Source of the DNA: a virus | Virus record (IMG/VR): IMGVR_UViG_3300012012_000763 | Location: 4,490-51,436 of that record | Reading direction: 5' to 3' (one strand) | DNA: 46,947 nt | In this document: positions 4,834-22,756 of the stretch, piece after piece | How positions within the stretch are numbered: position 1 is the stretch's first letter | Layout: every line of letters starts with the position of its first letter | Notes under the pieces: model-generated | The model's database searches: none | Told to the model about the DNA's origin: nothing | The model's input: the letters and a program-made list of their open reading frames with translations, nothing else | Position numbers and translations under genes: made by a program

Positions 4834-4847
4834 TAAAAGGTTATGTT

Positions 4848-6280: not shown

Positions 6281-6283
6281 TGT

Positions 6284-6817: not shown

Positions 6818-6825
6818 ACTTAATT

Positions 6826-6834
6826 TATATTTAT
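6826..6834 (+). promoter_or_regulatory. late-promoter-like motif (doubtful, very close to start)
   Basis: TATATTTAT ends only 4 bases before the ATG at 6839. If it works like the other copies, the transcript would begin inside the gene, so it may be chance or may serve genes further downstream. Confidence 0.25.
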
Positions 6835-6838
6835 CAGT

Positions 6839-7183
6839 ATGAACAACACAACTGAAAATATAGTTAAAGAAATAATACGAGAATATATTGCACAATATGT
6901 TCGTGAAGGAAAAAAGCCAAGTGGTGGTCTTACTGGTTGGTTTAGAGAAAAGTGGGTAGATATTTCTCGTAAGAAAAAAAGTGGTGGACACCCGCCATGT
7001 GGCGCTTCTGCTGGAAGTAGAGCCAGAAAAGGTGGAAAGAGGGCATATCCCAAATGTGTTCCGGCAGCAAAAGCCGCTTCAATGTCTTCAAAACAAAAGC
7101 GTAGTGCTGTAACGAGAAAGAGAAAACACGGTGCAACTGCTCGTGGTAAAGCAAAAATGGTTTCAACTTATACAAAAGGTTAA
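6839..7183 (+). CDS. small basic DUF5872-like protein
   Basis: 114 residues, very Lys/Arg/Gly-rich. An amphipathic N-terminal helix (NIVKEIIREYIAQYVREG) is followed by GGLTGWFREKWVDISRKKK, then GGHPPCG and RAYPKCVPAAKA, then a basic tail. This block (W..EKWVDI-R, CG, Y-KC-P) recurs in T4-like phages and a few giant viruses and resembles the family annotated DUF5872; the two Cys and one His could bind metal. The helix resembles N-terminal helices of other proteins in this window and may be a packaging signal. The role is unknown, possibly DNA-associated. Confidence 0.5.
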   Translation: MNNTTENIVKEIIREYIAQYVREGKKPSGGLTGWFREKWVDISRKKKSGGHPPCGASAGSRARKGGKRAYPKCVPAAKAASMSSKQKRSAVTRKRKHGATARGKAKMVSTYTKG

Positions 7184-7185
7184 TT

Positions 7186-7524
7186 ATGGAAGATGTTTTG
7201 ACACAAAAGATTGGCAATTACATAAAAATGATTGCCATAGGTATCTTTACAATACTATTCATCTATGTTGTTTATGACAATAATAGTTCAAAAGAACAAC
7301 TAATACATTCAAAAAAAACTGCAGATAGTTTGGAAGCTCTCATAAACAAGTATGAATTTGATTATACTAATTTGAAAAAAAGAGCAGATGAATTAGACTC
7401 ACTGATTACGATTCGTAAGGATAGTATTCTTATCATTAGAAAGAAATTCTACATTTATCGTGATAAAGAAATAAAAAATCCCGATGAAGCCACAAAATAT
7501 ATTATCAACTTTTTGAAAGACTAA
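7186..7524 (+). CDS. N-terminally anchored coiled-coil protein (i-spanin-like)
   Basis: 112 residues. One transmembrane helix lies near the N-terminus (IAIGIFTILFIYVVY). A long charged coiled coil follows (KKTADSLEALINKYEFDYTN and onward) with a basic C-terminus. This is the topology of Rz-type inner-membrane spanins, and the next gene is a second membrane-anchored coiled-coil protein 3 bases downstream. Against a classical spanin pair, the partner has no evident lipobox. The gene lies directly upstream of the terminase operon. Confidence 0.45.
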   Translation: MEDVLTQKIGNYIKMIAIGIFTILFIYVVYDNNSSKEQLIHSKKTADSLEALINKYEFDYTNLKKRADELDSLITIRKDSILIIRKKFYIYRDKEIKNPDEATKYIINFLKD

Positions 7525-7527
7525 TCT

Positions 7528-7899
7528 ATGAAGTATTTGGTTGCCCTATTATTTTCAGTAACAACAATGTTTGCTACTGAAAAAGACTCAATTATATGTT
7601 TTAAGAAATCCGAAGTAGTAACTTTGGCAAATAAAATTCAACTCATTCGTGATTCGGTAGAATATCTTACCGCAGTTGTAAATGCACAAGATACTTTGAT
7701 AGAGTTCCATCAAACAAGATTTGACTTGTATCATCAACAATTGAGAAACCGTGAACAAGTTATTGATGCTTGTCAAAAAAGAACGGTGGAATTAGAAAAA
7801 ATAATACAAGAACTTCAACCTCGTTGGTATGATAATAAATTACTTTGGTTTTTTGGTGGGGTAGGAACAGTTCTTGGGATAATGTTTGCGGTGCAATGA
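7528..7899 (+). CDS. exported coiled-coil protein with C-terminal TM
   Basis: 123 residues. The N-terminus MKYLVALLFSVTTMFA is a plausible signal peptide. A coiled coil fills the middle (residues ~30-95), and the C-terminus ends in one hydrophobic helix (WFFGGVGTVLGIMFAV). The Cys at about residue 24 is not in a lipobox context. Together with the preceding protein it could span the periplasm for lysis, but the double anchoring is unlike known o-spanins. The stop overlaps the terminase start (ATGA at 7896). Confidence 0.45.
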   Translation: MKYLVALLFSVTTMFATEKDSIICFKKSEVVTLANKIQLIRDSVEYLTAVVNAQDTLIEFHQTRFDLYHQQLRNREQVIDACQKRTVELEKIIQELQPRWYDNKLLWFFGGVGTVLGIMFAVQ

Positions 7900-9479
7900 G
7901 TAAGAACTTAAAAGATATTATTAAAGAAGAATACGCAAAGTGTGCCTCAAATCCGGTATACTTTATGAAAAGGTATGCCAAAATTCAACACCCAACCCGT
8001 GGCAAAATTCTATTTGACCTATACCCATTTCAGGAAGATGTTCTTCATAAATTTAATACTAACCGATGGAACATTGTATTAAAGTCTCGTCAGTTGGGTA
8101 TATCCACTGTTATTGCGGGTTATTCGCTTTGGTTAATGTTATTCAATCAAGATAAAAACATTCTTGTTATTGCAACTAAACAAGAAACTGCAAAAAACTT
8201 GGTAACAAAAGTTCGTGTTATGTATGACAATATGCCAAGTTGGTTGAAGACTGGTGTTCAAGAGGACAATAAACTTTCACTTCGATTTAAGAACGGTTCA
8301 CAAATTAAAGCCGTTTCTGCTGCCGCCGACTCTGCTCGTTCTGAAGCACTTTCACTTCTTATCATAGACGAGGCCGCCTTTATTGATGACATAGATAAGA
8401 TATGGGCATCCGCACAACAAACACTCGCTACAGGTGGAACTGCCATTATCAACTCTACCCCAAACGGTGTTGGTAACTTTTATCACAAACAATGGGTAAA
8501 GGCGATAAACAAAGAGAGTGCATTTAATCCAATAGAATTATTATGGCAAGTTCATCCAGACCGTGACCAAAAATGGCGCGATGAACAAGATATACTATTG
8601 GGTCCTGATATGGCAAAACAAGAGTGTGATGGAAACTTTCTTGCGTCTGGTCGTGCAGTTATTGATGGGGAACTTGTCCAATGGTATGAACAAACTTATG
8701 TGTGTGAACCAAAAGAAAAACGTGGTGCAGAAGACGCTTATTGGATTTGGGATTATCCAGAACCAAATAAAACATATATGGTTATTGCTGACGTTGCTCG
8801 TGGTGATGGAAACGATAACTCAGCATTTCATGTCATAGATGTTGAAAATATGGAACAAGTTGCAGAATACAAAGGTAAACTTGATACAAAAACTTATGGT
8901 AATATGTTGGTATCAGTTGCAACAGAATATAATGATGCTCTTCTTGTAGTTGAAAATGCTAACATTGGTTGGGCAGTAATTCAACAAATTATTGATAGAG
9001 GTTATCCAAATCTTTATTATACATATAAAGAAGATGGTTATACCGATCCTTCTGTTCATATTCCGAGAGGGTATGACTTAAAAGACAAATCACAAATGGT
9101 TCCTGGTTTCACTACAAGTGCAAAAACAAGACCACTTCTTATTTCAAAGTTGGAAACATATTTCCGTGAAAGATTACCAATAATAAAATCATCAAGATTA
9201 GTTCAAGAACTGTATGTGTTTGTTTGGAATGGTGCAAAGGCAGAAGCACAACAAGGATATAATGACGATTTGGTTATGTCATTCTCTATCGGACTTTGGG
9301 TTAGAGATACTGCACTAAAACTTCGTCAAGAAGGTTTATTGAAAACAAGAATGAGTTTGGATTATATGGGCAAGGCATCTGTCCCACATAAACCATCATA
9401 TAATTTTGGTGACGATAGTAATGGTTGGAATATGAAAATAAATGGACAAGACGAAGATTTAACATGGTTGATAAAATAA
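7896..9479 (+). CDS. terminase large subunit (T4 gp17-like)
   Basis: 527 residues from ATG 7896, which overlaps the preceding TGA. The N-terminal ATPase has a Walker A-like SRQLGIST (residues 64-71), Walker B LLIIDEAAF (154-162, D158/E159) and coupling motif STPNG (187-191). The C-terminal RNase H-like nuclease has IADVARG (D299), VVEN (E353) and NDDLVMS (D457/D458), the three acidic metal ligands. It pumps DNA into the prohead through the portal and cuts the concatemer. No small terminase subunit is recognisable in the window. Confidence 0.93.
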   Translation: MSKNLKDIIKEEYAKCASNPVYFMKRYAKIQHPTRGKILFDLYPFQEDVLHKFNTNRWNIVLKSRQLGISTVIAGYSLWLMLFNQDKNILVIATKQETAKNLVTKVRVMYDNMPSWLKTGVQEDNKLSLRFKNGSQIKAVSAAADSARSEALSLLIIDEAAFIDDIDKIWASAQQTLATGGTAIINSTPNGVGNFYHKQWVKAINKESAFNPIELLWQVHPDRDQKWRDEQDILLGPDMAKQECDGNFLASGRAVIDGELVQWYEQTYVCEPKEKRGAEDAYWIWDYPEPNKTYMVIADVARGDGNDNSAFHVIDVENMEQVAEYKGKLDTKTYGNMLVSVATEYNDALLVVENANIGWAVIQQIIDRGYPNLYYTYKEDGYTDPSVHIPRGYDLKDKSQMVPGFTTSAKTRPLLISKLETYFRERLPIIKSSRLVQELYVFVWNGAKAEAQQGYNDDLVMSFSIGLWVRDTALKLRQEGLLKTRMSLDYMGKASVPHKPSYNFGDDSNGWNMKINGQDEDLTWLIK

Positions 9480-9497
9480 GTTTTACATTTTTTCCTA

Positions 9498-9506
9498 CAT
9501 ATTTAT
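9498..9506 (+). promoter_or_regulatory. late-promoter motif
   Basis: CATATTTAT, 32 bases before the portal ATG at 9539, in a 59-base gap after the terminase gene. No -35 or -33 partner is apparent. Confidence 0.6.
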
Positions 9507-9538
9507 ATTAAGTTTATATTACATAAAATAGGTGACAA

Positions 9539-9856
9539 ATGGCACAAAATAAATCATTATTTGATAGGTTGAAAACACTTTTTTCTACAAACGTTGTTGT
9601 TCGTAATGTTGGTGGTAAAAAATTGAAGGTTGTAGATACAGCCCGTTATCAAGGTGATGGAAACCCACACACATCAAAAGTTATTGATAGATATGGTAGA
9701 TTACACGGGACAAAGGGAACGCCAATATCAGTATACAATCAATACAACTCATTCTCAGCAACAAAAATAGACCTTTACATACTGATTATGAGGCAATGGA
9801 CACCGATGCCATTATATCATCAGCACTTGACATATATGCAGATGAAAGCACTCTAA
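9539..9856 (+). CDS. portal protein, N-terminal part (before frame break)
   Basis: The ATG is preceded by AGGTG. The first ~80 codons read as a typical T4-type portal N-terminus: SLFDRLKTLFSTNVVVRNVG, KKLKVVDTARYQ, VIDRYGRLH and YNSFSATKIDLY. After about 9777 the frame becomes non-homologous and stops at 9856. The expected continuation (TDYEAMDTDAIISSALDIYA) is in the -1 relative frame, open from 9700. Either one or two bases differ from an intact gene, the sequence has an error here, or ribosomes shift frame. As printed, this frame alone cannot give a working portal. Confidence 0.7.
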   Translation: MAQNKSLFDRLKTLFSTNVVVRNVGGKKLKVVDTARYQGDGNPHTSKVIDRYGRLHGTKGTPISVYNQYNSFSATKIDLYILIMRQWTPMPLYHQHLTYMQMKAL

Positions 9857-11406
9857 AAAATGATACCGGTGACGTTTTAACTATAAAAACCGATAATGAT
9901 AATATCCGTAAGATATTACGAAACCTTTTTTATGATGTTCTCAATATAGAATATAATCTTTGGCCTTGGATTCGTAATCTTTGTAAGTATGGTGACTTTT
10001 ATTTGTATCTGGATGTAAAAGATGAATTGGGTGTAACAAATGTTGTTCCCTTTTCACCATACGAAATGCAAAGAGAAGAAGGAACTGATCCAGAACATAT
10101 CTATATGACAAAATTTATCTACGAAGGACCTCTTGGTAAAGGGGAATTTCAAAATTATGAACTAGCACATTTTCGTCTTTTAGGTGACACTAACTTTCTA
10201 CCCTACGGTAAATCAATGTTGGAAGGTGCTCGTAAACTTTACAAACAACTCGTTCTTATGGAAGATGCGATGTTGATACATCGTATCATGCGTGCTCCTG
10301 AAAAACGTATATTCAAAGTTGATATTGGAAACATACCACCATCCGAAGTTGATCAATATATGAATAATCTTATGAACCGAATGAAAAAGACACCAGTTAT
10401 CAATGAACAGACTGGTGACTACAATCTTCGTTTTAATATGCAAAACTTATTAGAAGACTTTTACCTTCCTGTTCGTGGTGGTCAATCTGGAACAGAAATT
10501 GAAACGCTTGCAGGATTACAGTATCAGGCAATTGAAGACATTGAATATCTAAAAAGTAAAATCTTTGCTGCTCTAAAAGTTCCAAAACCATATTTGGGCT
10601 ATGACGAAAGCATCGAAGGTAAGGCAACACTTGCCGCTCTCGATATTCGTTTTGCCAGAACAATTGAAAGAGTCCAAAGAATTGTTGTTTCTGAATTAAC
10701 CAAAATTGCAATTGTTCATTTGTATGCACAAGGTTATGAAAATGCAGATTTAGTAAATTTTGAACTTGGTTTGACCGGACCTTCAATCATATATGAACAA
10801 GAGAAAGTTGCGCTTATGAAAGAAAAAGTGGACTTGGCGGGAACACTAATAGAAAAGAAATTACTTTCAATGAAATATATTTATTCCAATATCTTTAATC
10901 TTTCAGAAGACCAGGCCGAATTTGAAAAGAATGAAGTTCTTGAAGATATTAAACACGCCTTCCGTCAAAAACAAATTGAAAACGAAGGTAATGATCCGGC
11001 TATAACAAAAGAATCATTTGGAACTCCACATGATATTGCAAGTATGCAGATTCGTGGTGGTGGGAAGATGATAACTGATAATGAAGTTCCAGAGGGTGGT
11101 TGGCCAGGTGCAGGTAGACCTGCTAAAAACCTTGATTATGGAACAGATAATAGTCCTTTTGGTAGAGATCCACTTGGAAAGAAAGATATTGGAAACACTC
11201 TCAAAGTAAATAATTCACCAAAAGTAAATTACAAAGGAAATTCTCCTCTTTCTCTTGAAAATCGTGATATAGGTAAATTGATAGATAGTATGTCTGGTAT
11301 AAAGGTTAAGACCAAAAGTATAATATCCGAAAGTCTTAAACCCTCCATTAAACAAGAAAATGAATCAAATTTACTGAATGAGGACAATTTATTAGATGAA
11401 TTGTAA
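9796..11406 (+). CDS. portal protein, main part (T4 gp20-like)
   Basis: 536 residues from the first ATG in this frame, but homology reaches back to about 9778 (HTDYEA before the Met), so this is the body of the portal begun at 9539. Diagnostic blocks are IISSALDIYADEST, LFYDVLNIEYNLWPWIRNL, RAPEKRIFKVDIGN, and SKIFAALKVPKPYLGYDE with GKATLAALDIRFARTIERVQ. The portal is the dodecameric gateway at the capsid vertex that nucleates prohead assembly and docks the terminase. GAGG lies just 2 bases before this ATG, so independent initiation cannot be excluded. The C-terminal 120 residues are low-complexity and polar. Confidence 0.88.
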   Translation: MDTDAIISSALDIYADESTLKNDTGDVLTIKTDNDNIRKILRNLFYDVLNIEYNLWPWIRNLCKYGDFYLYLDVKDELGVTNVVPFSPYEMQREEGTDPEHIYMTKFIYEGPLGKGEFQNYELAHFRLLGDTNFLPYGKSMLEGARKLYKQLVLMEDAMLIHRIMRAPEKRIFKVDIGNIPPSEVDQYMNNLMNRMKKTPVINEQTGDYNLRFNMQNLLEDFYLPVRGGQSGTEIETLAGLQYQAIEDIEYLKSKIFAALKVPKPYLGYDESIEGKATLAALDIRFARTIERVQRIVVSELTKIAIVHLYAQGYENADLVNFELGLTGPSIIYEQEKVALMKEKVDLAGTLIEKKLLSMKYIYSNIFNLSEDQAEFEKNEVLEDIKHAFRQKQIENEGNDPAITKESFGTPHDIASMQIRGGGKMITDNEVPEGGWPGAGRPAKNLDYGTDNSPFGRDPLGKKDIGNTLKVNNSPKVNYKGNSPLSLENRDIGKLIDSMSGIKVKTKSIISESLKPSIKQENESNLLNEDNLLDEL

Positions 11407-11413
11407 AATTGCC

Positions 11414-11423
11414 TATATTTATT
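11414..11423 (+). promoter_or_regulatory. late-promoter motif
   Basis: TATATTTATT, 34 bases before the ATG at 11458 and just after the portal stop. The downstream start has its own AAGGA. Confidence 0.6.
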
Positions 11424-11457
11424 CTATGAAAGTGCACATAAACAGGTATAAGGAACA

Positions 11458-12300
11458 ATGAAGAAAATTAAACATTCAAAATTCAAAAATACTGCAATGT
11501 TGTTTGAGTTATTGACTCGCCAAATAACATCAGACATAATTTCCTCTAATGAATCGGTAGCAATACAGATTCTTAAAAAATACTTTAATAAGAATACAGA
11601 ACTTATTAAAGAGTATAAACTCTATAAAACCCTTTGTGACGAAAAATTAAAGTCAGAAACAAAGGCAAATATGTTAATAGAGGCAGTATTAAAGGCAAGA
11701 CGAGGATTGAATAAAAATAAATTACAAAAAGAAAAGTATGAATTGATAAAAGCAATCAAAGAAAATTTTGATATTGATTCATTTTTTCAAACAAAAGTTC
11801 AAAACTATAAACTTCTTGCTTCTGTTTACAAAGTTTTTGAATATAATGAATTAGAAAATCCTGTTGAGATAACAAAATCTCGTATAACAATACTTGAAAA
11901 TATAACATCAAGACAAAAAAATTCTGTAATAACAGAAGACGTTGCTATTGCACAAGAACCAAAAGAAGTTCGTTTATTGGCATACAAGTATTTGGTTGAA
12001 AAATTTAATACCAAATACAGTAACTTGTCCGAATCACAGAAGGTTCTATTGAGAGAATATATTGAAAATGTAAGCAACACTAATAACTTAAAGTCTCTCG
12101 TTCAAACAGAAGCGGTAACTCTGAAAAGATTATTTACAAAAAATATGCATAGAGTAAAAGATAAATCTTTGAAAATAAAATTACAAGAAGTTGCTGGTCT
12201 TTTAGATGAATACGTTGATATAAAGAAGGTAGAAGAAAATCATATATCTGCACTCCTTCGTTATTATAGTTTAATAGAAGATTTATCATGGAGTAAATAA
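11458..12300 (+). CDS. conserved head-module protein, unknown function
   Basis: 280 residues, almost entirely helical and charged. The N-terminal block KHSKFKNTAMLFELLTRQIT resembles a family seen next to portal and prohead protease genes in marine T4-like phages. I know of no assigned activity. It starts with AAGGA spaced about 5 bases and ends in a TAATG overlap with the next gene. Location suggests a prohead core or assembly role; no catalytic motif is visible. Confidence 0.5.
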   Translation: MKKIKHSKFKNTAMLFELLTRQITSDIISSNESVAIQILKKYFNKNTELIKEYKLYKTLCDEKLKSETKANMLIEAVLKARRGLNKNKLQKEKYELIKAIKENFDIDSFFQTKVQNYKLLASVYKVFEYNELENPVEITKSRITILENITSRQKNSVITEDVAIAQEPKEVRLLAYKYLVEKFNTKYSNLSESQKVLLREYIENVSNTNNLKSLVQTEAVTLKRLFTKNMHRVKDKSLKIKLQEVAGLLDEYVDIKKVEENHISALLRYYSLIEDLSWSK

Positions 12301-12608
12301 TGTCAGTTAATGAAGTCCACCCATATAATTTTCCTGCATCGCAGGCAAATGAATTTGAAAGAAAAGGTCATCCTGGAAAATGGTTAAAGACAATCACAGT
12401 TAGTGGAACAGTTTGGTTTACTGGTTCAAATTATGGTGCTGGTGCAATAATTCCGTTTAGTAGTGCTGCCGGAACTGCTTACCTTACTGGTGGTGGAAGT
12501 ATTAACATCGGTAATTTGGCAAAAACTTATATCCATGAATTATCTATTGAAAGGATAGAGGGTGGTGCAGATTGCTATGTGTTAATTCGTAATCAAATGA
12601 TTAGGTAA
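12300..12608 (+). CDS. small beta-rich hypothetical protein
   Basis: 102 residues, start overlapping the previous stop (TAATG). Alternating hydrophobic strands rich in Gly/Ser/Thr (TITVSGTVWFTGSNYGAGAI, GTAYLTGGGSINIG) and a C-terminal ELSIERIEGGADCYVLIRNQ suggest a compact beta-sandwich. This could be a capsid decoration or head-tail accessory protein. The family is not recognised. Confidence 0.45.
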   Translation: MSVNEVHPYNFPASQANEFERKGHPGKWLKTITVSGTVWFTGSNYGAGAIIPFSSAAGTAYLTGGGSINIGNLAKTYIHELSIERIEGGADCYVLIRNQMIR

Positions 12609-12611
12609 TAT

Positions 12612-13115
12612 ATGAACGTTGAATCTTTCATAAAAAAACTTAAAGAGTCCGAAGAATACCGTGAGTTTACCGAAGAATTATCTTTGGATGAAATGAGCAC
12701 GACTGCTTCTGTTCCTGGATATCAAACTCCTAACGCTTTTGCCAAAAGTGAAGAAGATTTTGAAGAACACAATAAAGAAACTGCTGAAGTTTATGGATAT
12801 AAAATTGTTCCAAAAACAAAAAAGAAAAATTATGAGTCTGTATACAAACAGGCGATGGGCGTGATAAATGAAGGAACGTATAAAGAGTTTAGAACTGACG
12901 AAACCCGAAGCTCAAATAGAAAAATAAATGATTCTATTAAGAACATAAACAGAACAATTTACGAAGTTGAAAGAGTTGTTGAACATGCATTAAGACTAAA
13001 AACAGAAATGAATGTTGATCAAAGAACTCTTTGGGGTGAATCAATGAGTAGATTGCGTAAAATATCAGAAAGAATAAACAGAATTACAAAAAAAATACAC
13101 GAATTAGGTGCTTAA
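12612..13115 (+). CDS. conserved head-module protein with TTASVPGYQTPNAF motif
   Basis: 167 residues. The motif EMSTTASVPGYQTPNAF at residues ~27-43 recurs in T4-like phage proteins encoded near the prohead protease. The C-terminal half is a long charged helix. It contains INE-G at residues 85-88, a candidate prohead protease cleavage site of the (I/L)xE type. It could be a core protein processed during head maturation. Only 1 base separates it from the protease ATG. Confidence 0.5.
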   Translation: MNVESFIKKLKESEEYREFTEELSLDEMSTTASVPGYQTPNAFAKSEEDFEEHNKETAEVYGYKIVPKTKKKNYESVYKQAMGVINEGTYKEFRTDETRSSNRKINDSIKNINRTIYEVERVVEHALRLKTEMNVDQRTLWGESMSRLRKISERINRITKKIHELGA

Positions 13116-13116
13116 A

Positions 13117-13788
13117 ATGAAAGAACTACTCGTAGATACTATACTTTTTAATGTAAACCCAAAGATGATTACCGAATCTGAAAAGAAAAACGGTGGTAAA
13201 GTTATAGTTTCAGGAGTATTACAGAGAGCTGAGGCAAAGAATCAGAATGGTAGAGTATACCCCAAAAAGATTTTGATGCGTGAAGTTAAAAAATATGCGG
13301 AAAATAATATAAAAGAAAATCGTGCGCTTGGTGAGTTGGATCATCCAGATTCATCTGTAATAAATCTTCGTAATGTTTCTCATAATGTTCTTGGTGTAGA
13401 TTGGAAAGGAAATGATGTTGTTGGTAGAGTAGAAATACTACCAACACCATCCGGAAATATACTAAAACAACTTCTTGGTGCAGGTATTCGTCTTGGAATA
13501 TCATCAAGAGGATTAGGTTCAGTGGAAGAAATATCAGAAGGAACCGTGGAGGTTCAAGATGATTTTGAATTGATTGGATGGGATTTTGTATCTAATCCAT
13601 CAACTCATGGTGCTTTCATGTATCCGCAAGGAATGGGTGAAGGTTTACATGAAGGGTTAATAACCGAAGGAATATCAACATCAACTATTGCAAAAATTGA
13701 TCCTAAATTAAATCGTATTCATAGTAACATAACAAATATAATATGTGAAATTGGTAATGTTTGTGAATGTATATTTGAGGGTAGATAA
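13117..13788 (+). CDS. prohead core protease (T4 gp21-like)
   Basis: 223 residues from ATG 13117; the in-frame GTG at 13108 would overlap the preceding gene. GRVYPKKILMREV, ALGELDHP (H76), GISSRGLGSV (S129/S130) and WDFVSNPST (D156) match the serine-protease core of the gp21/prohead-protease family, with His and Ser of the triad visible. It cleaves scaffold, capsid and internal proteins before DNA packaging. Two candidate self-cleavage sites, LHE-G (177-180) and ITE-G (182-185), sit in its own C-terminal region, as expected for a protease that inactivates itself. Confidence 0.9.
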   Translation: MKELLVDTILFNVNPKMITESEKKNGGKVIVSGVLQRAEAKNQNGRVYPKKILMREVKKYAENNIKENRALGELDHPDSSVINLRNVSHNVLGVDWKGNDVVGRVEILPTPSGNILKQLLGAGIRLGISSRGLGSVEEISEGTVEVQDDFELIGWDFVSNPSTHGAFMYPQGMGEGLHEGLITEGISTSTIAKIDPKLNRIHSNITNIICEIGNVCECIFEGR

Positions 13789-13790
13789 CC

Positions 13791-14387
13791 ATGCCGGCAC
13801 TTTCGCAACAACAACAAAAAATCATGGGATTGGCTCTTGCATATAAAAGAGGAAAAGTTCCTTCATCCGATGTAAGTAAGTCTGTAAAAGATTTGGCATC
13901 ATCTATGTCTGAAAAAGAATTAGAAAAGTTTGCAAGCACAAAACATGCTGGTCTTCCTAAAAAAGTTGGTGAAACAAAAACAACAATGAAAAAAGAGGAT
14001 ATACAAAAATTAGTTGCAGATGCCGTTCAAGAAGTAATGAATGAAAAATTCAGCACAAAAGTTCTTACGTCAGAACAAAAACAACAGTATATTGAGGCAA
14101 TTTCAAGATACAACGAATACCGTTCAGTTGTTCATCGTTCAAATGCACTTCCAGAAATAGTTTCAGAGATAAAAAGACTTGTTGAATTTGCAAGTAAAAA
14201 TATGGTAGAAGAATCTGGAGATTGGTTTGAAGGCGTATCACACCGAAGAAACTCAAAAAGATTGAAAGAAACTGTGAATGAATTTCAAAAAATATCTGAA
14301 AAAATAGTTAAGTTACAAAGAAACTTGGAGTCTATCTACGAAAATATAGGTAAACAACTCGGTTCATTTTATGAAATAAAAAAATAA
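13791..14387 (+). CDS. DUF3008-like N-terminus fused to helical domain
   Basis: 198 residues. Residues 1-60 (SQQQQKIMGLALAYKRGK, SMSEKELEKFASTKHAGLP) match the short DUF3008 module otherwise found as a free-standing ~60-residue protein in bacteria and phages. The rest is helical and charged (residues ~65-198), probably coiled coil. It follows the protease by 2 bases and precedes the bS21 gene. The role is unknown; being in the prohead block, it may be a core component. The fusion is the notable feature. Confidence 0.55.
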   Translation: MPALSQQQQKIMGLALAYKRGKVPSSDVSKSVKDLASSMSEKELEKFASTKHAGLPKKVGETKTTMKKEDIQKLVADAVQEVMNEKFSTKVLTSEQKQQYIEAISRYNEYRSVVHRSNALPEIVSEIKRLVEFASKNMVEESGDWFEGVSHRRNSKRLKETVNEFQKISEKIVKLQRNLESIYENIGKQLGSFYEIKK

Positions 14388-14398
14388 GGAAAAATGTT

Positions 14399-14626
14399 AT
14401 GTCAGACAGAGTTTATACCAGTTCAAAACCTGCTCATGTAAAAGTAAAGGCAGGTGGAATGAATGTAGATACAATGATTAAGGTTTTTAAGCGTAAAGTT
14501 AAAGAAGCCGGTATTCTTGAAGAATATAAAAATCGTATGGAATATATTAAACCATCGAAGAAAAAATCTGAAAAACGAAATGCTGCTATAAGAAGACAAC
14601 GTAAAATTGACGTTGAAAACATTTAA
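14399..14626 (+). CDS. rpsU: ribosomal protein bS21 homologue
   Basis: 75 residues. HVKVKAGGMNVDTMIKVFKR, then KVKEAGILEEYKNRMEYIKP and a Lys/Arg-rich tail, align without gaps to bacterial S21 (pattern ...FKR..KEAG.L.E...R..Y.KPS...K). The Shine-Dalgarno TAAGGA overlaps the previous stop 8 bases before the ATG. bS21 sits at the 30S platform near the 3' end of 16S rRNA. Phage-encoded bS21 is known from several uncultivated and pelagic phages. Here it lies between prohead genes and 10 bases before an ADP-ribosyltransferase-like gene, so it should be made late. Replacing or competing with host bS21 is the likely role. Confidence 0.85.
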   Translation: MSDRVYTSSKPAHVKVKAGGMNVDTMIKVFKRKVKEAGILEEYKNRMEYIKPSKKKSEKRNAAIRRQRKIDVENI

Positions 14627-14636
14627 TGGAGATAAA

Positions 14637-15821
14637 ATGGACTTTTCTAGTCTTACAAAACTAATCCGCAAAGAAAAACGGAAAGTTAATGAAAATCTGG
14701 AATGGTCTTTTTTATTATATGAAGATGAAGAAAAACCAGCAAGTGAAGATCCAGATAAAATGCTTGTGGTAAATAAGGAAAGTGGAAAATCCTATTACAT
14801 AAGTAAAAAGAGTTTTGATCCAGCAAAGCATCAAAAATCTGCACCCAAAGAAAAGGCGCCAAAAAAAGAAGAAGAAGAACCTGCAGCAGAAACTCCAACA
14901 GAGACACCAGCGGAAACTCCTGCTGAACCTGCAGCTGAAACTCCGGCAGAAACGCCAGCTGAACCTGCAACTACAACTGAACCTGCAGCTGAAACTCCTA
15001 CTACTGCAACACCAACGGAAACACCAAAAGAACCAAATGAAGAAAAAACTGGATTAAAAACTGTTGGTTTCTTAAAACCAATAGAAGTAGAGAAGCTGGA
15101 TAAAAAAACAAGAAACTTATATCCAAATACAAGACAAAATTTATTGCAATATGATTTTGAAGATGCATTGAATATGTATGACGATAATCTTGACAAAAAG
15201 AAAGATTACAAAAAATTATACAAGAGAATTGAAACTATTGCATTGGCAAAACATAGTTTAATAAGTAAAATGGAATTAGATGCAGAAACTATATTTGCAC
15301 TAAAACATTTTTATATCAATAGTTTACGGATAAACAATATATTAAATTATGGACAACTAATGCCGTATTATGAGATAATGAAACAAATAAAGTTGGGAAA
15401 ACCAAAAGAAGGCGATAAACGAGAAAAAGAATATAATAGTGCAAAAAATTCGGTAACTATAATAAATTTAGATAGTGCCTTCGATGAAGGATTGCAGAGA
15501 TTAGACTATCCAATCGTTTCTTATCGTTCAGTAGAAAACAAAGATGTATTAGAATACTTTATTAACGAGAGAACATGGATAGATAAATCATTTGTAACAA
15601 CATCACTCAACCCGTTGATTGCAGAGAAAGGAAAAAAACGTATGCCATTATTTGAGTATTACATTCCAAGTAATACATCTATTTTAACTTTACCTTGTCA
15701 TTCAAATGATTATTGCCACGAAACAGAAGTTACACTTCCAAGAAATTGTAGATATACAATAGAAGGTTTTAATGAAGAAAGAAACATTTACAAAGTATTA
15801 GTGGAACAAAACTATGCCTGA
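14637..15821 (+). CDS. ADP-ribosyltransferase-fold protein, Alt-like candidate
   Basis: 394 residues from ATG 14637 (GGAG 6 bases upstream); the TTG at 14607 is not a likely start. Residues ~1-75 form a charged N-terminus, ~76-135 an Ala/Pro/Glu/Thr repeat linker (PAETPAE, PAAETP), ~140-285 a helical domain and ~290-394 the catalytic fold. That fold shows the R-S-E signature: YRSV (R297), VTTSLNP (T321-S323) and HETEVTLP (E362, E364, an ExE loop). These features match C3/VIP2/Alt-type mono-ADP-ribosyltransferases. In T4, Alt is packaged in the head and injected to modify host polymerase. Being in the prohead operon, this may be the counterpart. LYE-D (27-30) could be a head-protease site. The target is unknown. 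Confidence 0.7.
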   Translation: MDFSSLTKLIRKEKRKVNENLEWSFLLYEDEEKPASEDPDKMLVVNKESGKSYYISKKSFDPAKHQKSAPKEKAPKKEEEEPAAETPTETPAETPAEPAAETPAETPAEPATTTEPAAETPTTATPTETPKEPNEEKTGLKTVGFLKPIEVEKLDKKTRNLYPNTRQNLLQYDFEDALNMYDDNLDKKKDYKKLYKRIETIALAKHSLISKMELDAETIFALKHFYINSLRINNILNYGQLMPYYEIMKQIKLGKPKEGDKREKEYNSAKNSVTIINLDSAFDEGLQRLDYPIVSYRSVENKDVLEYFINERTWIDKSFVTTSLNPLIAEKGKKRMPLFEYYIPSNTSILTLPCHSNDYCHETEVTLPRNCRYTIEGFNEERNIYKVLVEQNYA

Positions 15822-15942
15822 TGAAAAGAAAATAGATACGAATGATAGGGATAAGAGATATACCTACACCGAATCAGACATAAAAAGGATATTTTCATAC
15901 GGTCCAAAAGAAAAAACCGTAAAAAAAATTGAAAAAAAATAA
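15814..15942 (+). CDS. 42-residue highly charged small protein
   Basis: Short gene whose ATG at 15814 overlaps the stop of the ADP-ribosyltransferase-like gene by 8 bases. It encodes 42 residues, mostly Lys, Asp and Glu, with the pattern YTYTESDIKRIFSYGPKEK and a poly-Lys tail. The overlap, frame and absence of internal stops suggest a real coupled gene, but length makes this uncertain. No function can be assigned. Confidence 0.4.
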   Translation: MPDEKKIDTNDRDKRYTYTESDIKRIFSYGPKEKTVKKIEKK

Positions 15943-16050
15943 CTTGCCTCATACTTATACTTACATAATACTCTATCCGTTATAGAGTCCGATATTATTT
16001 TTTATTGCAATTAGTGTTTCAAATAACACTAAAAATAGTTGGAGATTTTT
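15943..16050 (+). promoter_or_regulatory. leader of scaffold gene with two hairpins
   Basis: This 108-base gap has no clear copy of the late motif. It holds a 6-bp hairpin (CTCTAT 15971-15976 with ATAGAG 15982-15987) and a perfect 8-bp hairpin (TTAGTGTT 16011-16018 with AACACTAA 16025-16032, 6-base loop) ending 8 bases before GGAG of the scaffold start. No T-run follows, so neither is a terminator. They may stabilise or regulate the scaffold/capsid mRNA. TATTATTTTTTATT at about 15993-16006 could be a degenerate promoter. Confidence 0.4.
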
Positions 16051-17121
16051 ATGAATGATTTATTGAAAGAAGCGATTGCAGATGCTAAAGCCGTTAAGGA
16101 AGTTGCATTAGCAAACGCTAAACTCGCATTGGAAGAGGCATTCACTCCGCGTTTGCAGTCTATGCTTTCCCAAAAGTTGGCAGAGGAGGCAGAAGCCGAG
16201 GAGCCAGTTGAGGAAGGCGAGGGTGAAGAAGAAGCACCCGTAGAAGAATACGGATTCTATAGCGAAGGTGAAGATGAAGAACCTGCTATGGAAGAAGGCG
16301 AAGGCGAAGAAGAAAAGGTTGAAGAAGCCGAAGAAGAAGAAGCTCCCGTTGAGGAAGCTGAAGAAGAAGAAGCACCTGTTGAAGAAGGTGAAGATGAAGA
16401 AGAACCAATGGATGAAGAATTGATGGAAATTATCCGTCAATTAGAAGAAGACATTGATTCATCTGAAATTGGAACCGGTGACAATAAGAAACCATCAGCA
16501 GTAGCGTCTGATGACAGCACAGAAGATAAGGGTGAAAAACTTGTTCAACTTGTTGAAGAAGAAGATGAAGACTCCGAAGAAGTTGCTGAAATCAAAGAAA
16601 TCCTCCGTGCTCTTCGTGAAGAAGAAGAAGGTGAAAAAGCTGAAGAAAAAGTTGAAGAAGGTGAAGACGAAGAAGAAGTAGACATCAAAGAAGTTTTGCG
16701 TGCTCTTCGCGAGGAAGAAGAAGAAGAAAAAGTTGAAGAAGCCGAAGACGATAAGGAAAAAGAAATGGCAGAAGCAAAACTACGTGAAGCTTATGCTGTT
16801 ATCAAATTCTTGCGTTCTAAAATCAATGAAGTCAATCTTTTGAACTCAAAATTGCTCTTCTCTAACAAGTTATTCCGTAAGCATTCACTCAATGAAAAAC
16901 AAAAAATGACTGTTATCGAAAACTTTGATCGTGCATCAAGTCTTCGTGAAGTCAAATTAGTTTATGCTACACTTTGCGAATCGTTAAGAACAACAAAGAT
17001 TAAACAAATTAAAGAATCTTTTGCGTCTAAACCAACCGCAAGCACACGCCCATCAAAACCCATTTTGAATGAAGGTGATGATATGGCAAATCGTTTACGT
17101 AAATTAGCAGGTTTGAAATAA
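16051..17121 (+). CDS. prohead scaffold / core protein (T4 gp22-like)
   Basis: 356 residues from ATG 16051 (GGAG 6 bases upstream). The conserved N-terminus LLKEAIADAKAVKEVALANA and ALEEAFTPRLQSMLSQKL are typical of gp22-type scaffolds. A very acidic Glu-rich middle (residues ~50-245) contains repeated APVEEAEEEE units and two copies of IKE(I/V)LRALREEEE. The conserved C-terminal domain follows (INEVNLLNSKLLFSNKLF, SLREVKLVYATLCESL). LNE-G at 339-342 is a candidate cleavage site near the C-terminus. It forms the internal core around which the capsid assembles and is degraded by the gp21-like protease. The gene sits immediately before the capsid gene, as in T4. Confidence 0.88.
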   Translation: MNDLLKEAIADAKAVKEVALANAKLALEEAFTPRLQSMLSQKLAEEAEAEEPVEEGEGEEEAPVEEYGFYSEGEDEEPAMEEGEGEEEKVEEAEEEEAPVEEAEEEEAPVEEGEDEEEPMDEELMEIIRQLEEDIDSSEIGTGDNKKPSAVASDDSTEDKGEKLVQLVEEEDEDSEEVAEIKEILRALREEEEGEKAEEKVEEGEDEEEVDIKEVLRALREEEEEEKVEEAEDDKEKEMAEAKLREAYAVIKFLRSKINEVNLLNSKLLFSNKLFRKHSLNEKQKMTVIENFDRASSLREVKLVYATLCESLRTTKIKQIKESFASKPTASTRPSKPILNEGDDMANRLRKLAGLK

Positions 17122-17139
17122 TTTTTTAAGGAAAAAACA

Positions 17140-18783
17140 ATGAGTATACAAAATTTATTAAATACTTCGGGTAATCCCCATAAGCAACTTATCAAAGAAA
17201 ACAAGCAGATTGTCAATAAATGGGCAAAAACTGGTCTTCTTGATAATTTGAAAAACGAATATGAAAAGAACTCTATCGCAGTTCTTCTCGAAAATCAAGC
17301 AAAACAACTTATCGAAGAATCAAACAGAACAGGAACAGCAGCTGGTTCAGAAGAATGGGCTGGCGTTGCACTTCCATTGGTTCGCCGTATTTTCTCTGAA
17401 ATTGCTGCGAAAGACTTTGTTTCAGTTCAACCAATGAACTTGCCTTCTGGTCTTGTGTTCTTCTTGGATTTCAAATATGGAACAGCACAACCTGGCTTTA
17501 CAGCAAATGCAGGTAAAGATTCGCAAGCTGATTCAGTATTTGGTGTAACTGGTAAAGATGCAAAAGACGCTGATCCTTCAGGCGGTCTTTATGGTGCAGG
17601 TCGTTTTGGTTATTCAATCAATGAGGCAACAACTGCTGCATTGTCTGTAACTGCTGCTACAGTTGATTCAACAAACTGTGCAACTGGTTCAGTATCACAC
17701 TCTACACCATCTGTATATCAGCATGACACAGAGTTCCAAAATGCTTACTCCGCATCACTTGCTAGTGGTAAAATCTTTACAGTTACAGTTTCTTCCGCAT
17801 CTATGACAAACCATGATGCTGAGGCAATCCGTGCTTTCAAGATTTCTGGTTCAAACATTTTGGGTTATTTCCCACAATACACAACAACAAATACAACAAA
17901 CACTCAAATTACATTCGTTGTTTCTGCTTCTGCAGTTCCTGGTAATGCAGTTGTTTCTTATGAAAAACAACCAACTGCTACAAGCCGTGGTGACTTTGAA
18001 GATGGTTTGGCTGGTGGAAGTCTTGACATTCCTGAAATCAACCTTGAATTGCGTTCAGAATCCATTGTTGCTAAAACACGTAAGTTGAAGGCAGTATGGA
18101 CACCTGAATTTGCACAAGATTTGAATGCATATCACTCAATCGATGCTGAAGCTGAATTGACATCTATGTTGTCTGAATACATTTCACAAGAAATTGATTT
18201 GGAAATTCTTGATATGTTGATTAAGAATGCACAAACAACAGAAAGATGGTCAGCTCGCATCGGTCGCACATATGATGCTGCTACAAGCACATTCGGTGAC
18301 TATGCTACAAACCAAGCTGCTGCATCTGCTTTCAATCAACAAACTTGGTTCCAAACACTTGGCACAAAGATTCAAAAAGTATCAAACACAATTCATCAGA
18401 AAACACTTCGTGGTGGTGCAAACTTCCTCGTATGTTCTCCACAAGTTGCTACAATACTTGAATCAATGCCTGGCTATGCAGTTGATGGTGAAGGTATGAA
18501 ATTCGCAATGGGTGTTCAAAAAGTTGGTCAATTGAATGGCCGTATCACAGTTTACAAGAATCCTTACATGCTTGAAAACCAAGTTCTTGTAGGTTTCCGT
18601 GGAACACAATTCCTCGAAACTGGTGCTGTGTATGCTCCATACATTCCACTCGTAATGACACCGTTGGTATACGATCCAACGAACTTCACACCAAGAAAAG
18701 GCGTGATGACTCGTTATGCGAAGAAGATTGTTCGTCCAGAGTTCTATGGTCTTATCCAAATTGATTCTCTCGGTGACATCTAA
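17140..18783 (+). CDS. major capsid protein (T4 gp23-like)
   Basis: 547 residues, start preceded by AAGGA. Recognisable gp23 blocks: NKWAKTGLLDNL, LLENQAKQLIEE, GSEEWAGVALPLVRRIFSEI, LVFFLDFKYGTA, then SESIVAKTRKLKAVWTPEFA with QDLNAYHSIDAEAELTSMLS, and VLVGFRGTQFLETGAVYAPY with ITRYAKK-like ending RYAKKIVRPEFYG. Processing probably removes about 59 residues at LIE-E (57-60), comparable to the 65 removed in T4. Residues ~115-270 contain a Ser/Thr/Ala-rich insertion, probably a surface domain. Codon use is richer in preferred codons than that of neighbours, as expected for a very abundant protein. The gene ends at a strong terminator. Confidence 0.93.
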   Translation: MSIQNLLNTSGNPHKQLIKENKQIVNKWAKTGLLDNLKNEYEKNSIAVLLENQAKQLIEESNRTGTAAGSEEWAGVALPLVRRIFSEIAAKDFVSVQPMNLPSGLVFFLDFKYGTAQPGFTANAGKDSQADSVFGVTGKDAKDADPSGGLYGAGRFGYSINEATTAALSVTAATVDSTNCATGSVSHSTPSVYQHDTEFQNAYSASLASGKIFTVTVSSASMTNHDAEAIRAFKISGSNILGYFPQYTTTNTTNTQITFVVSASAVPGNAVVSYEKQPTATSRGDFEDGLAGGSLDIPEINLELRSESIVAKTRKLKAVWTPEFAQDLNAYHSIDAEAELTSMLSEYISQEIDLEILDMLIKNAQTTERWSARIGRTYDAATSTFGDYATNQAAASAFNQQTWFQTLGTKIQKVSNTIHQKTLRGGANFLVCSPQVATILESMPGYAVDGEGMKFAMGVQKVGQLNGRITVYKNPYMLENQVLVGFRGTQFLETGAVYAPYIPLVMTPLVYDPTNFTPRKGVMTRYAKKIVRPEFYGLIQIDSLGDI

Positions 18784-18805
18784 ACCATATTGGATTCGTG
18801 AAAAT

Positions 18806-18840
18806 AAAGGAGTGAGATTTTCTCACTCCTTTTTTATTTT
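18806..18840 (+). terminator. rho-independent terminator after capsid gene
   Basis: AAAGGAGTGAGA (18806-18817) pairs perfectly with TCTCACTCCTTT (18821-18832) around a TTT loop, followed by TTTATTTT. This 12-bp stem isolates capsid expression from the next unit. Confidence 0.85.
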
Positions 18841-18845
18841 TAGGA

Positions 18846-18855
18846 TATATTTATT
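18846..18855 (+). promoter_or_regulatory. late-promoter motif
   Basis: TATATTTATT directly after the capsid terminator and 27 bases before the ATG at 18883. Confidence 0.65.
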
Positions 18856-18882
18856 TGATATAATCAAACAATAGAGAATGGT

Positions 18883-19869
18883 ATGAAAAAGAAAAAACTA
18901 TTTGAAGATGATGAAATTTTTGGAACTACAAGTGCTATGCCTCTAAGCACAGTTCCTGGAGATGCTGCAAAGGCGGCATACAAAGGTGGAAAAAAAGACG
19001 GTGACGATACTGATGATGCGATTCCATCATCGAAAGTATCAGTTGCTGCTGCTAAATTGAAACCTTCACAAAAAGAGGTAGTTCCACAAAAAGCAGTAGA
19101 ATTTGCTTTTTCTGCAATAATGAAAATTAAACCGATGGAAAGTGGACCTGGTGGAGATTTACAGGCGATTATTTCAAATGACAATTATATCATGGATGGA
19201 CACCATAGATGGGCAGCAACGTTTCTTGTTGATCCGTCTGCCGCTCTTCAAGCAACACAAATTGACCTACCAGGTGCAGCTCTTGTAACTGCTTTGAATG
19301 TTGTAACAAAAGGTTTAGGTCGTGGTGGAAATACTGGTAAAGGTGATATATCAAAGTTTGGTGGCAAACCAATTGAAGATGCAATTGATGCAGTTTTGGC
19401 AAATGGATATTGGGCACAGTCGGATGCAGAAACTTGTAAAAAGGCATTTGAAGAATGGGGTGGTGGTTCTGTTGAAGACGCTAAAAAGAAGATGGTTGCA
19501 AATGCAGAAAAAATGCCAAAGGCAATTCCAGGATGGGCACCAAATCGTGTAGATATGCCAGTAATCAATGCTCCGGAAGTTGCAACTATTGCTAAGGCAA
19601 TTGCAGCTGGTGCAGTTGATATTAAGAAACCATATAGTCCTGATGTAAAGGATAAAATGGAATCATATTATCAAATGAGAATTGGCAAAAAACCACTAAC
19701 AGAACTTACAATAAAAATTCTCAAAGAATATAATAAAAGAAATCAAAAGAGATTACAAGAATCTTATATTAAGAAAGTTAAAAAGCAAAAATTACAAGAA
19801 AAATTATTCAATTTAATAAAACCAATAGTTGCTGAAGTATTAAAAACTAATATAAAAAAGAAACGATAA
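18883..19869 (+). CDS. ParB/DGHHR-domain protein
   Basis: 328 residues. LQAIISNDNYIMDGHHRWAA near residues 90-110 is the nucleotide-binding loop of the ParB/sulfiredoxin-like fold (the DGHHR motif also occurs in free-serine kinases and DUF1015 proteins). It is followed by an Ala/Gly-rich middle and a basic helical C-terminus with LFNLIKPIVAEVL. Proteins with this motif occur among head-proximal genes of marine T4-like phages. Activity could be nucleotide hydrolysis, kinase or nuclease; the sequence does not decide. Bracketed by a late motif and terminators, it is a single-gene transcription unit. Confidence 0.55.
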   Translation: MKKKKLFEDDEIFGTTSAMPLSTVPGDAAKAAYKGGKKDGDDTDDAIPSSKVSVAAAKLKPSQKEVVPQKAVEFAFSAIMKIKPMESGPGGDLQAIISNDNYIMDGHHRWAATFLVDPSAALQATQIDLPGAALVTALNVVTKGLGRGGNTGKGDISKFGGKPIEDAIDAVLANGYWAQSDAETCKKAFEEWGGGSVEDAKKKMVANAEKMPKAIPGWAPNRVDMPVINAPEVATIAKAIAAGAVDIKKPYSPDVKDKMESYYQMRIGKKPLTELTIKILKEYNKRNQKRLQESYIKKVKKQKLQEKLFNLIKPIVAEVLKTNIKKKR

Positions 19870-19872
19870 CAC

Positions 19873-19905
19873 AAACCCCACATTATTATGTGGGGTTTTT
19901 TATTT
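19873..19905 (+). terminator. rho-independent terminator
   Basis: AAACCCCACA (19873-19882) pairs with TGTGGGGTTT (19889-19898) around a TTATTA loop, followed by TTTATTTT. It starts a few bases after the stop of the ParB-domain gene. Confidence 0.85.
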
Positions 19906-19911
19906 TAACAA

Positions 19912-19921
19912 CATATTTATT
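19912..19921 (+). promoter_or_regulatory. late-promoter motif
   Basis: CATATTTATT immediately downstream of a terminator and 41 bases before the ATG at 19963. Confidence 0.65.
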
Positions 19922-19962
19922 GTAAAACTATATCAACAATTTTGAAGTATTATGGAGTCACT

Positions 19963-21309
19963 ATGGCAAACAGTCGTAAACAACTAAACTCTTTGAAATA
20001 CCTTATGAACGAGGTAATGTCAGAAAAGAGATTGAATCAGAGAATTAACTCGAACACTATTAAATTTACAACCCTTGACGAATCTGCAATAAATTCATTA
20101 TTGGAATCCGATATATTTACACAGAATGAAGCGGCTGCCATGCGTATTTTGTTTTCAAAGACAAAAACAAAAACATTGAGTGAGTCTGTAATTAAGAAAT
20201 TAGATAAAAGTGTAAAGACAATAGTTGAATCCAAAGAAGGTGATGCCGTATTAACCGAAGGATTTTTTAGTGATATATGGGATGGTATTAAAGGTCTTGG
20301 TGACAAAGCAAAAGAAGTTCTTTCAGGTGGTTGGGGTAAAGTTAAGGCAGTATGGGGTGAGTTTACAGAACTTGTAACAGAAGTTGCTGCTGCTTGTAAA
20401 GACGGATTGACAAAGGCATTTGGTTCTTTTGCAGAAAAGGCAAAAGGTGCTTCTGCTAAAGTTGCAGATGCAGCAAAAGACTTGGGTAGTAAAATTACGG
20501 ACAAAAATGCTTTTGCTAAAGAAGTAAAAGAATTGTCTGATAGTGTAACATATGTAACAAAAACATTCTTTGATAAATGGATTGCAAAACCAACATGGGA
20601 AAAAGACATGATTGCCGGTAGTGTTGCTCCAACAGAAGAGGTTAAAGTTGATGCTGCAAAGGCAGAAGATGGTTTAGAAGATTTGAAAACAATGGAATCA
20701 TTCAATAAGATGAAATTAAATCTTATTAAAGAAAGAAACAATATCCTTTCTAATGCTGATGTCATAAAAGAATTATTCAGAAGTTCCGATGCTCGTGCAT
20801 TTCTTATGGAAGGTGGTGGATTTGCTCACCTTGAAGGTTCAATTAAAAACCCTTTCTTAAAAGGTATAGTTGAATGGTCTGTAAAAATTCTTCAGGCAAT
20901 TTTTATCCCATTGGCAAAGATTGCTCAAGTAGTTGCCGGTTTAGTTGGTAAAGAATTGCTTAAAAAGTTTTCGGAAGGTGTTAAACTTTTAGGTGGACCC
21001 GGCGTATTCGCATTTGTTGTTATTGGTGGACTTATATCGGAAGTGTTAGAAGTTGCAGTTAAATCTGTTACACCAAATGGTCCTGCTATTGCTGCCATGT
21101 TTATACCTGGACTTGCTCCAATTGTTCTTGCAGCTCAAGGATTGATTACTACCGTTAAAGGTGCACTTACAATTTATACAGTTGCAACTATAATAATAAA
21201 CATTGTTCCTATTCTACAAAAATCTGGAACTGCTGCTCCTGCTGCGGAATCATATAACCCACGTGGTGAGTTCAAAATCCAAGACGGTAATTTGTTATAC
21301 GTAAAATAA
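19963..21309 (+). CDS. probable internal virion protein with membrane-active C-terminus
   Basis: 448 residues from ATG 19963 (GGAG 5 bases upstream); the TTG at 19942 is less likely. Residues 1-99 form a Ser/Lys/Asn-rich helical leader ending in LTE-G (97-100), a good prohead-protease site. Residues ~100-260 are Ala/Lys-rich amphipathic helices. The C-terminal half has three long hydrophobic stretches (LQAIFIPLAKIAQVVAGLVG, PGVFAFVVIGGLISEVLEVA, AIAAMFIPGLAPIVLAAQGL). A second site, LME-G (281-284), precedes them. This layout recalls injected or internal head proteins that interact with membranes. I do not recognise the family. Confidence 0.5.
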   Translation: MANSRKQLNSLKYLMNEVMSEKRLNQRINSNTIKFTTLDESAINSLLESDIFTQNEAAAMRILFSKTKTKTLSESVIKKLDKSVKTIVESKEGDAVLTEGFFSDIWDGIKGLGDKAKEVLSGGWGKVKAVWGEFTELVTEVAAACKDGLTKAFGSFAEKAKGASAKVADAAKDLGSKITDKNAFAKEVKELSDSVTYVTKTFFDKWIAKPTWEKDMIAGSVAPTEEVKVDAAKAEDGLEDLKTMESFNKMKLNLIKERNNILSNADVIKELFRSSDARAFLMEGGGFAHLEGSIKNPFLKGIVEWSVKILQAIFIPLAKIAQVVAGLVGKELLKKFSEGVKLLGGPGVFAFVVIGGLISEVLEVAVKSVTPNGPAIAAMFIPGLAPIVLAAQGLITTVKGALTIYTVATIIINIVPILQKSGTAAPAAESYNPRGEFKIQDGNLLYVK

Positions 21310-21321
21310 ATTGGAACAAAA

Positions 21322-22074
21322 ATGAAAAAACGTAAATCAAATACAACTATAACTGAATCGGAATTAAAACGTATCATTAGAAATGAAGTTCTACGTTATC
21401 TTAAAGAAGAAGAAGAAGAAGTTGATAAAGAATTTGAAAAAGAATTTGAAGATGCAATGAATGCTGCATCTGGTCAAATAACTTCAAAGTTAGGTAAAGT
21501 TGCGGGTGAAGTTCAAAAGGTAGAAACTGATAAAGAAAAAGCTGCTGATATTTTGAAAAAAGAACCTGAATTAGCAAAACTTGCTACCGAAGCAATTCGT
21601 AGAAGAAAAAAAGCATTGCGTGAAGGTAAGCAGAAACAGGCATTAAATGAATTAGGACCTCTTTTCTTTGTAGGTTTTGCATTGGCAATTCCTGCACTCA
21701 TGGAAATAATTGGTAATGTATCATCATCTATTTCAAAAAAATTAGGTTTAACCGGTGAAACTGGTGAAAAAATTGCTCATATAGGTCACGACTTGCATAA
21801 AAAAATGATAGGTTTAATTAGAACTGGTTTAGATAAAACTGTTTTCAAAATACCACAGCTTTCTAAACTTGATGATTCCAAAAAAGATAAAATAGCAAAA
21901 GGTATTCATGTCTTAATAGTTGCATCTCTTGCTGTAAATTCTGGAGTAGAAGCAGTAAACGCTTTGAAAGCTGGTCAAGTCGGATTGAGTGGTCTTGAAT
22001 CTGCATTGGCTGCAGTTAAAGGTGGTGAAGTTAAGGCATTTTTAATAGATTTGATTAAAACAGTTTCTGCATAA
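21322..22074 (+). CDS. second probable internal virion protein with hydrophobic helices
   Basis: 250 residues. The N-terminal helix TESELKRIIRNEVLRYLKEE is a type common at the front of virion proteins in T4-like phages of marine and Bacteroidota hosts. A charged segment leads to LRE-G (99-102), a candidate prohead-protease site. Hydrophobic helices follow (LGPLFFVGFALAIPALMEII and IHVLIVASLAVNSGVEAVNA) with an amphipathic C-terminus. It is coupled 12 bases behind the similar-looking 19963 gene and ends at a terminator, so the two form a bicistronic late unit. Confidence 0.5.
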   Translation: MKKRKSNTTITESELKRIIRNEVLRYLKEEEEEVDKEFEKEFEDAMNAASGQITSKLGKVAGEVQKVETDKEKAADILKKEPELAKLATEAIRRRKKALREGKQKQALNELGPLFFVGFALAIPALMEIIGNVSSSISKKLGLTGETGEKIAHIGHDLHKKMIGLIRTGLDKTVFKIPQLSKLDDSKKDKIAKGIHVLIVASLAVNSGVEAVNALKAGQVGLSGLESALAAVKGGEVKAFLIDLIKTVSA

Positions 22075-22097
22075 GATACATAAAAATAAATTTTAAT

Positions 22098-22128
22098 AAG
22101 GGTGACATTTGTCACCCTTTTTTATTTT
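22098..22128 (+). terminator. rho-independent terminator
   Basis: AAGGGTGAC (22098-22106) pairs with GTCACCCTT (22111-22119), loop ATTT, followed by TTTTTATTTT. Confidence 0.85.
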
Positions 22129-22136
22129 CACTTTGC

Positions 22137-22145
22137 TATTTATTA
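22137..22145 (+). promoter_or_regulatory. weak late-promoter-like motif
   Basis: CTATTTATTA follows the terminator directly but lacks the usual YATA at its 5' end and ends 3 bases before the ATG at 22149. Given the terminator just upstream, some promoter must lie here. A transcript from it would be leaderless or would use the ATG at 22170. Confidence 0.35.
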
Positions 22146-22148
22146 CAA

Positions 22149-22748: not shown

Positions 22749-22756
22749 GAGCCATT

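Follow-up and report, generated by a model that had tools for sequence, protein, structure and literature searches.

A gene for ribosomal protein bS21 lies in the head gene cluster of a T4-like myovirus represented by the window (the whole stretch of DNA analysed, 46,947 nucleotides, which is a portion of a 51-kb IMG/VR virus record). Directly supported are its membership of the bS21 family, its conserved slot, purifying selection, vertical inheritance, and the genome-wide use of Shine-Dalgarno (SD) motifs by the window's phage family. The explanation that we favour, and consider reasonably probable, is that this is a functional bS21, long resident in the T4-like head cluster, which would be made late, enter the 30S subunits of an SD-using host and help most ribosomes to initiate efficiently on phage mRNA.

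Identity and surroundings of the bS21 gene

The features of the head region are the following:

9796..11406, + strand: portal protein gp20 (phrog_213, 1.6e-62)
13117..13788, + strand: prohead core serine protease, Peptidase_S77 / T4 gp21-like (PF03420, 5e-31; phrog_207, 6e-54)
13791..14387, + strand: DUF3008-family protein in the protease-bS21 interval (PF11450, 5e-16)
14386..14390, + strand: AAGGA SD-like motif of bS21, 8 nt before the ATG and overlapping the stop codon of the upstream gene
14399..14626, + strand: bS21 (rpsU-like) gene, 75 aa, ATG start (Pfam, NCBIfam, PHROG and PDB matches; dN/dS ~0.08; three-helix model)
14637..15821, + strand: Alt-like ADP-ribosyltransferase, 10 nt after bS21 (phrog_802, 7e-6; Foldseek; YR(S), VTTS and HETE motifs)
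15944..16050, + strand: conserved noncoding region recognised by alignment, with two hairpins and a T-run, then AGTTGGAG, the SD motif of the scaffold-like gene
16051..17121, + strand: acidic scaffold-like protein, assigned from its position directly before the capsid gene and its acidic composition
17140..18783, + strand: major capsid protein gp23 (PF07068, 2.5e-79)

The ORF at 14399-14626 was compared with the bS21 family using PF01165 (Ribosomal_S21), in which residues 19-68 match positions 6-55 of the 55-position profile (E 1.2e-13, 51 bits for a cut-off of 27), and TIGR00030 (S21p; 46.4 bits for a cut-off of 28.95), both scores exceeding the curated cut-offs. PHROG 21469 («ribosomal protein S21») also matches (4e-8), as do solved bS21 chains, with E-values down to 1.3e-6, and the phage-encoded bS21 that the earlier note had recognised here is thus borne out. 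Its description of the alignment as full-length is slightly generous: the quoted motifs are present, but residues 1-18 lie outside the Pfam profile and constitute a phage-specific leader. This leader and the tail are both conserved across the window's phage family, in which the FKR...G.L...Y.KP core is invariant. The protein is small and basic, and is predicted to be helical (residues 23-37, 39-50 and 54-73) in an AlphaFold model of modest confidence (mean pLDDT 70, pTM 0.32). The AGGA-type core upstream of the gene is preserved in nearly all relatives.

The locus is the head region of a T4-like myovirus, with the genes in the order portal, three small genes, S77 prohead protease (for which an alternative GTG start is possible at 13108), DUF3008, bS21, Alt-like ADP-ribosyltransferase, noncoding region, scaffold-like gene and gp23. 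bS21 is the second gene past the protease, with flanking gaps of 11 nt upstream and 10 nt downstream. It had been placed between protease and scaffold; the head context stands, with the protease upstream and gp23 downstream, but the scaffold-like gene is not adjacent, since a DUF3008 gene (between protease and bS21) and the Alt-like gene (between bS21 and the scaffold-like gene), both absent from the earlier note, are also present. Searches of Pfam and PHROG gave no family match for the scaffold-like protein, homologues of which occupy the same place in relatives. The ADP-ribosyltransferase model is matched by Foldseek to ADP-ribosyltransferase structures (best E 6e-9, for a mean pLDDT of only 61), and the product probably either resides inside the head or contributes to host takeover. 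Within it are a tract of proline/glutamate/threonine repeats and a short helical leader at the N-terminus; some clades lack the protein or have another in its place. A small ORF of ~42 codons (about 15815-15943) overlaps the 3' end of its gene and has a C-terminal part that is apparently conserved in relatives.

In the noncoding region, the consensus fold of 15944..16050 contains 4 pairs with two-sided changes, and AGTTGGAG is invariant before the scaffold-like gene; the region could be a terminator, a processing site or a translational control element. Because it separates bS21 from the scaffold-like and capsid genes, the proposed co-production of bS21 with the capsid proteins may not be strict; co-expression with head genes is plausible given the gaps of 10-11 nt, the kept slot and the late co-expression measured in other phages by Chen 2022 (PMC9723584). 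The T4-type late promoter TATAAATA was discarded as a candidate, with 6 occurrences for 5.8 expected and zero in the head region, which is no excess; sigma-70-like sites occurred at chance level.

Conservation and inheritance

About 60 related IMG/VR loci have the same gene order, as does Microcystis phage Mel-JY01. When the gp23 lineage was sampled more widely by capsid-protein search, 80 loci were obtained, and bS21 is present in 52 of them. Considering these together with a few from other scans, the bS21 gene lies upstream of the capsid gene and on the same strand in all cases (57/57). The protease-capsid interval is without bS21 in nine loci of the wider lineage, and no bS21 was found between the protease and capsid genes of Flavobacterium phage immuto; the gene is therefore dispensable in some phages.

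Distance matrices of bS21 and of the capsid protein match closely (Mantel r 0.88, and 0.69 outside the window family), which argues for inheritance with the capsid gene and not for frequent re-acquisition. The median dN/dS of bS21 in the window family is ~0.08, and as judged from these comparisons of sequences the gene is under purifying selection and has long been carried in the head cluster of the T4-like lineage. One candidate bS21 (L065) was rejected as an apparent chance match, and at least one «phage» record with a bS21 match (Acinetobacter MD-2021a) looks bacterial and was excluded.

Proposed role and comparison with known systems

According to the favoured explanation, bS21 would most likely be made late, together with the structural proteins, and would join the 30S subunits of a host presumed to use SD motifs, replacing or adding to the host bS21. 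Most ribosomes might then initiate efficiently on phage mRNA during the mass production of head and tail proteins. Such a benefit is not a given, since the bS21 of phage HTVC008M enters E. coli ribosomes and leaves them nearly inactive in vitro (PMC6375957); the hairpin region before the scaffold-like and capsid genes, and the lack of bS21 from the protease-capsid interval of the nine loci and of immuto, also count against the explanation.

It is possible, with a lower probability, that the phage protein merely makes up for bS21 that disappears or ceases to be synthesised once the host is shut off, so that ribosomes stay fully active with no selection of mRNA. bS21 is an exchangeable ribosomal protein, of the type that viruses tend to encode (PMC6375957), and the phage copy retains the conserved core; the family-conserved leader (residues 1-18) and tail, however, suggest more than a plain spare part.

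We regard as doubtful an extra-ribosomal or virion role, in which bS21 would be packaged in the head or bind RNA or other proteins, hence its location in the head cluster. T4 Alt is packaged in the virion, and the window's bS21 gene is situated between head genes and adjoins the Alt-like ADP-ribosyltransferase gene. Packaging was also considered by Chen 2022 (PMC9723584). However, the N-terminus of bS21 fails a leader pattern (a crude one) derived from its neighbours and matched by the ADP-ribosyltransferase, and bS21 persists in clades that have lost the ADP-ribosyltransferase (L043, L050, L051, L056-L058 and L063).

That phage bS21 genes are known, as had been stated, is correct (Mizuno 2019, PMC6375957), and their head-gene neighbours have likewise been published: bS21 lies beside prohead protease and capsid genes in predicted Bacteroidetes phages, is expressed late with structural genes, and has a prohead protease gene nearby in 310 of 900 published genomes, a late ribosome take-over being proposed and packaging raised as an option (Chen 2022, PMC9723584). 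The phages of that study resemble the window in the proximity of bS21 to the genes for terminase, portal, prohead protease and capsid. In them, bS21 and the structural genes are on opposite strands, whereas bS21 is co-directional in the window and its relatives; their bS21 is also Flavobacteriia-like with an aromatic residue at position 54, whereas the window protein has no aromatic residue there and the phage uses SD motifs. HTVC008M is, like the window phage, T4-like, SD-using and endowed with bS21, but its gene has CobS and Hsp20 genes as neighbours and is ~16 kb away from that of the capsid, and a search with the window protein does not reach its product, which is too distant. The RpsU of Mel-JY01 (PP395634, WWT39311.1) is 52% identical to the window's bS21 and has the same slot, order and strand, in a head region that is also SD-rich; the reported host of this phage, Microcystis elabens, may not apply to the window phage. 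Most of the earlier note's idea has already appeared in print, and the host that it assumes fits the window phage poorly; new here are the co-directional slot, the long vertical history and the occurrence in SD-using phages.

Shine-Dalgarno use and the host

SD cores were searched using one procedure throughout (ATG ORFs of at least 70 aa; AGGA, GGAG or GAGG at -20 to -4), frequencies upstream of starts being compared with those inside genes. A core precedes 49% of genes in the window (5% inside genes), 41% in relative G001 (4%) and 46% in relative G002 (6%), the range for the window's phage family being 41-51% vs 4-7%. Comparison phages gave 57% vs 9% (T4) and 41% vs 6% (HTVC008M), and the tested Bacteroidota phages gave 3% vs 6% (FCL-2), 6% vs 23% (immuto), 0% vs 4% (phiST) and 20% vs 18% (crAss001), which corresponds to no enrichment or a deficit. 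In G001 (177 kb), the motif is present in all nine stretches of ~20 kb (18-52%), the first of which encode RecA, DnaB-like helicase and DNA polymerase B families (scanned as one set).

These data bear on the claim that the host is a member of the Bacteroidota in which phage bS21 acts on the sequestered anti-Shine-Dalgarno and so alters initiation: the anti-Shine-Dalgarno would either stay hidden or, as the aromatic residue is absent, be released. bS21 has been tied to mRNA choice in F. johnsoniae, with a mention of phages (McNutt et al. 2023), and the Y54A change in its bS21 raises the output of an SD reporter, Tyr54 helping to hide the anti-Shine-Dalgarno (PMC9976891). For the window phage we consider this claim improbable. 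The main argument against it is the presence of SD motifs in genes needed early: the motif is found in the replication region of G001 and is therefore not waiting for a late bS21, as it should otherwise be missing from earlier genes. Genome-wide use of SD motifs also separates the window family from the tested Bacteroidota phages, and the window bS21 scores higher with gammaproteobacterial chains (31.7 bits) than with that of F. johnsoniae (22.6 bits). In its narrowest form, an SD-blind Bacteroidota host whose hidden anti-Shine-Dalgarno is opened by a non-aromatic phage bS21, the scenario is very improbable; if true, SD-rich phage mRNAs would gain a private translation system and SD-less host mRNAs would lose out.

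The residue equivalent to Tyr54, determined using the F. johnsoniae bS21 sequence of 7JIL as a reference, is Arg in 112 of the 121 window-family loci and Lys in the other 9, with no aromatic residue. Among three bS21 families, an aromatic residue at this position accompanied an SD frequency of 3%, vs 51-52% in its absence. This trend is absent in the wider gp23 lineage (13 loci with an aromatic residue, median SD 45%; 41 without, 48%; p = 0.47) and is misleading because it is confounded by relatedness; residue 54 was accordingly dropped as a predictor of SD use or host, and the lack of an aromatic residue in the window protein is undiagnostic.

Some clues do point towards Bacteroidota. After Mel-JY01, the nearest capsid and portal proteins are those of Flavobacterium phage immuto (55% and 54%), and a Fib_succ_major protein is encoded in G001 (C1:132267-132827), G002, G006 and Mel-JY01 (155528-156169), a family whose sole occurrence in 14 control genomes was in Bacteroides, and in the phages collection in Mel-JY01. 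This protein is possibly a host clue or a tail adhesin, and a Bacteroidota host for the window phage is on the whole unlikely. Mel-JY01 was deposited as a Microcystis phage; neither psbA nor Chloroa_b-bind was found in 9 and 12 records including Mel-JY01, which is uninformative on a cyanobacterial host as cyanophages can lack both. A scan of bacterial genomes with bS21 gave no match, and one with the capsid protein gave two phage contigs in MAGs (Woesebacteria and Maricaulis), set aside as too weak a host clue because binning errors are common.

Head-cluster bS21 is thus probably not confined to phages of Bacteroidetes: it occupies one slot throughout much of a large gp23 lineage, in which most sampled loci are SD-using, and is passed on there together with the capsid gene. 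Explanations of phage bS21 should therefore hold in ordinary SD-using hosts, and hiding of the anti-Shine-Dalgarno is unlikely to be the general reason for which phages retain the gene, a useful correction of where the published bS21 model applies.

Three other observations were made on relatives. The phage contig in the Woesebacteria MAG carries a divergent bS21 (L252:1952-2188) at the equivalent place among the head genes, and this protein has Phe where F. johnsoniae has Tyr54. G001 (L072-L080) encodes S-adenosylmethionine synthetase, a SAM-lyase family member, GroEL, ClpP, glutamine synthetase and UvdE. In L147 (LR756508), many adjacent small ORFs (~3589-22784) share an N-terminal motif resembling MKxxExxLRxxIREEI, possibly a capsid-targeting leader, and the portal and protease ORFs (5764-9924 and 16481-18205) are unusually long and matched piecewise by the window proteins, which suggests insertions.
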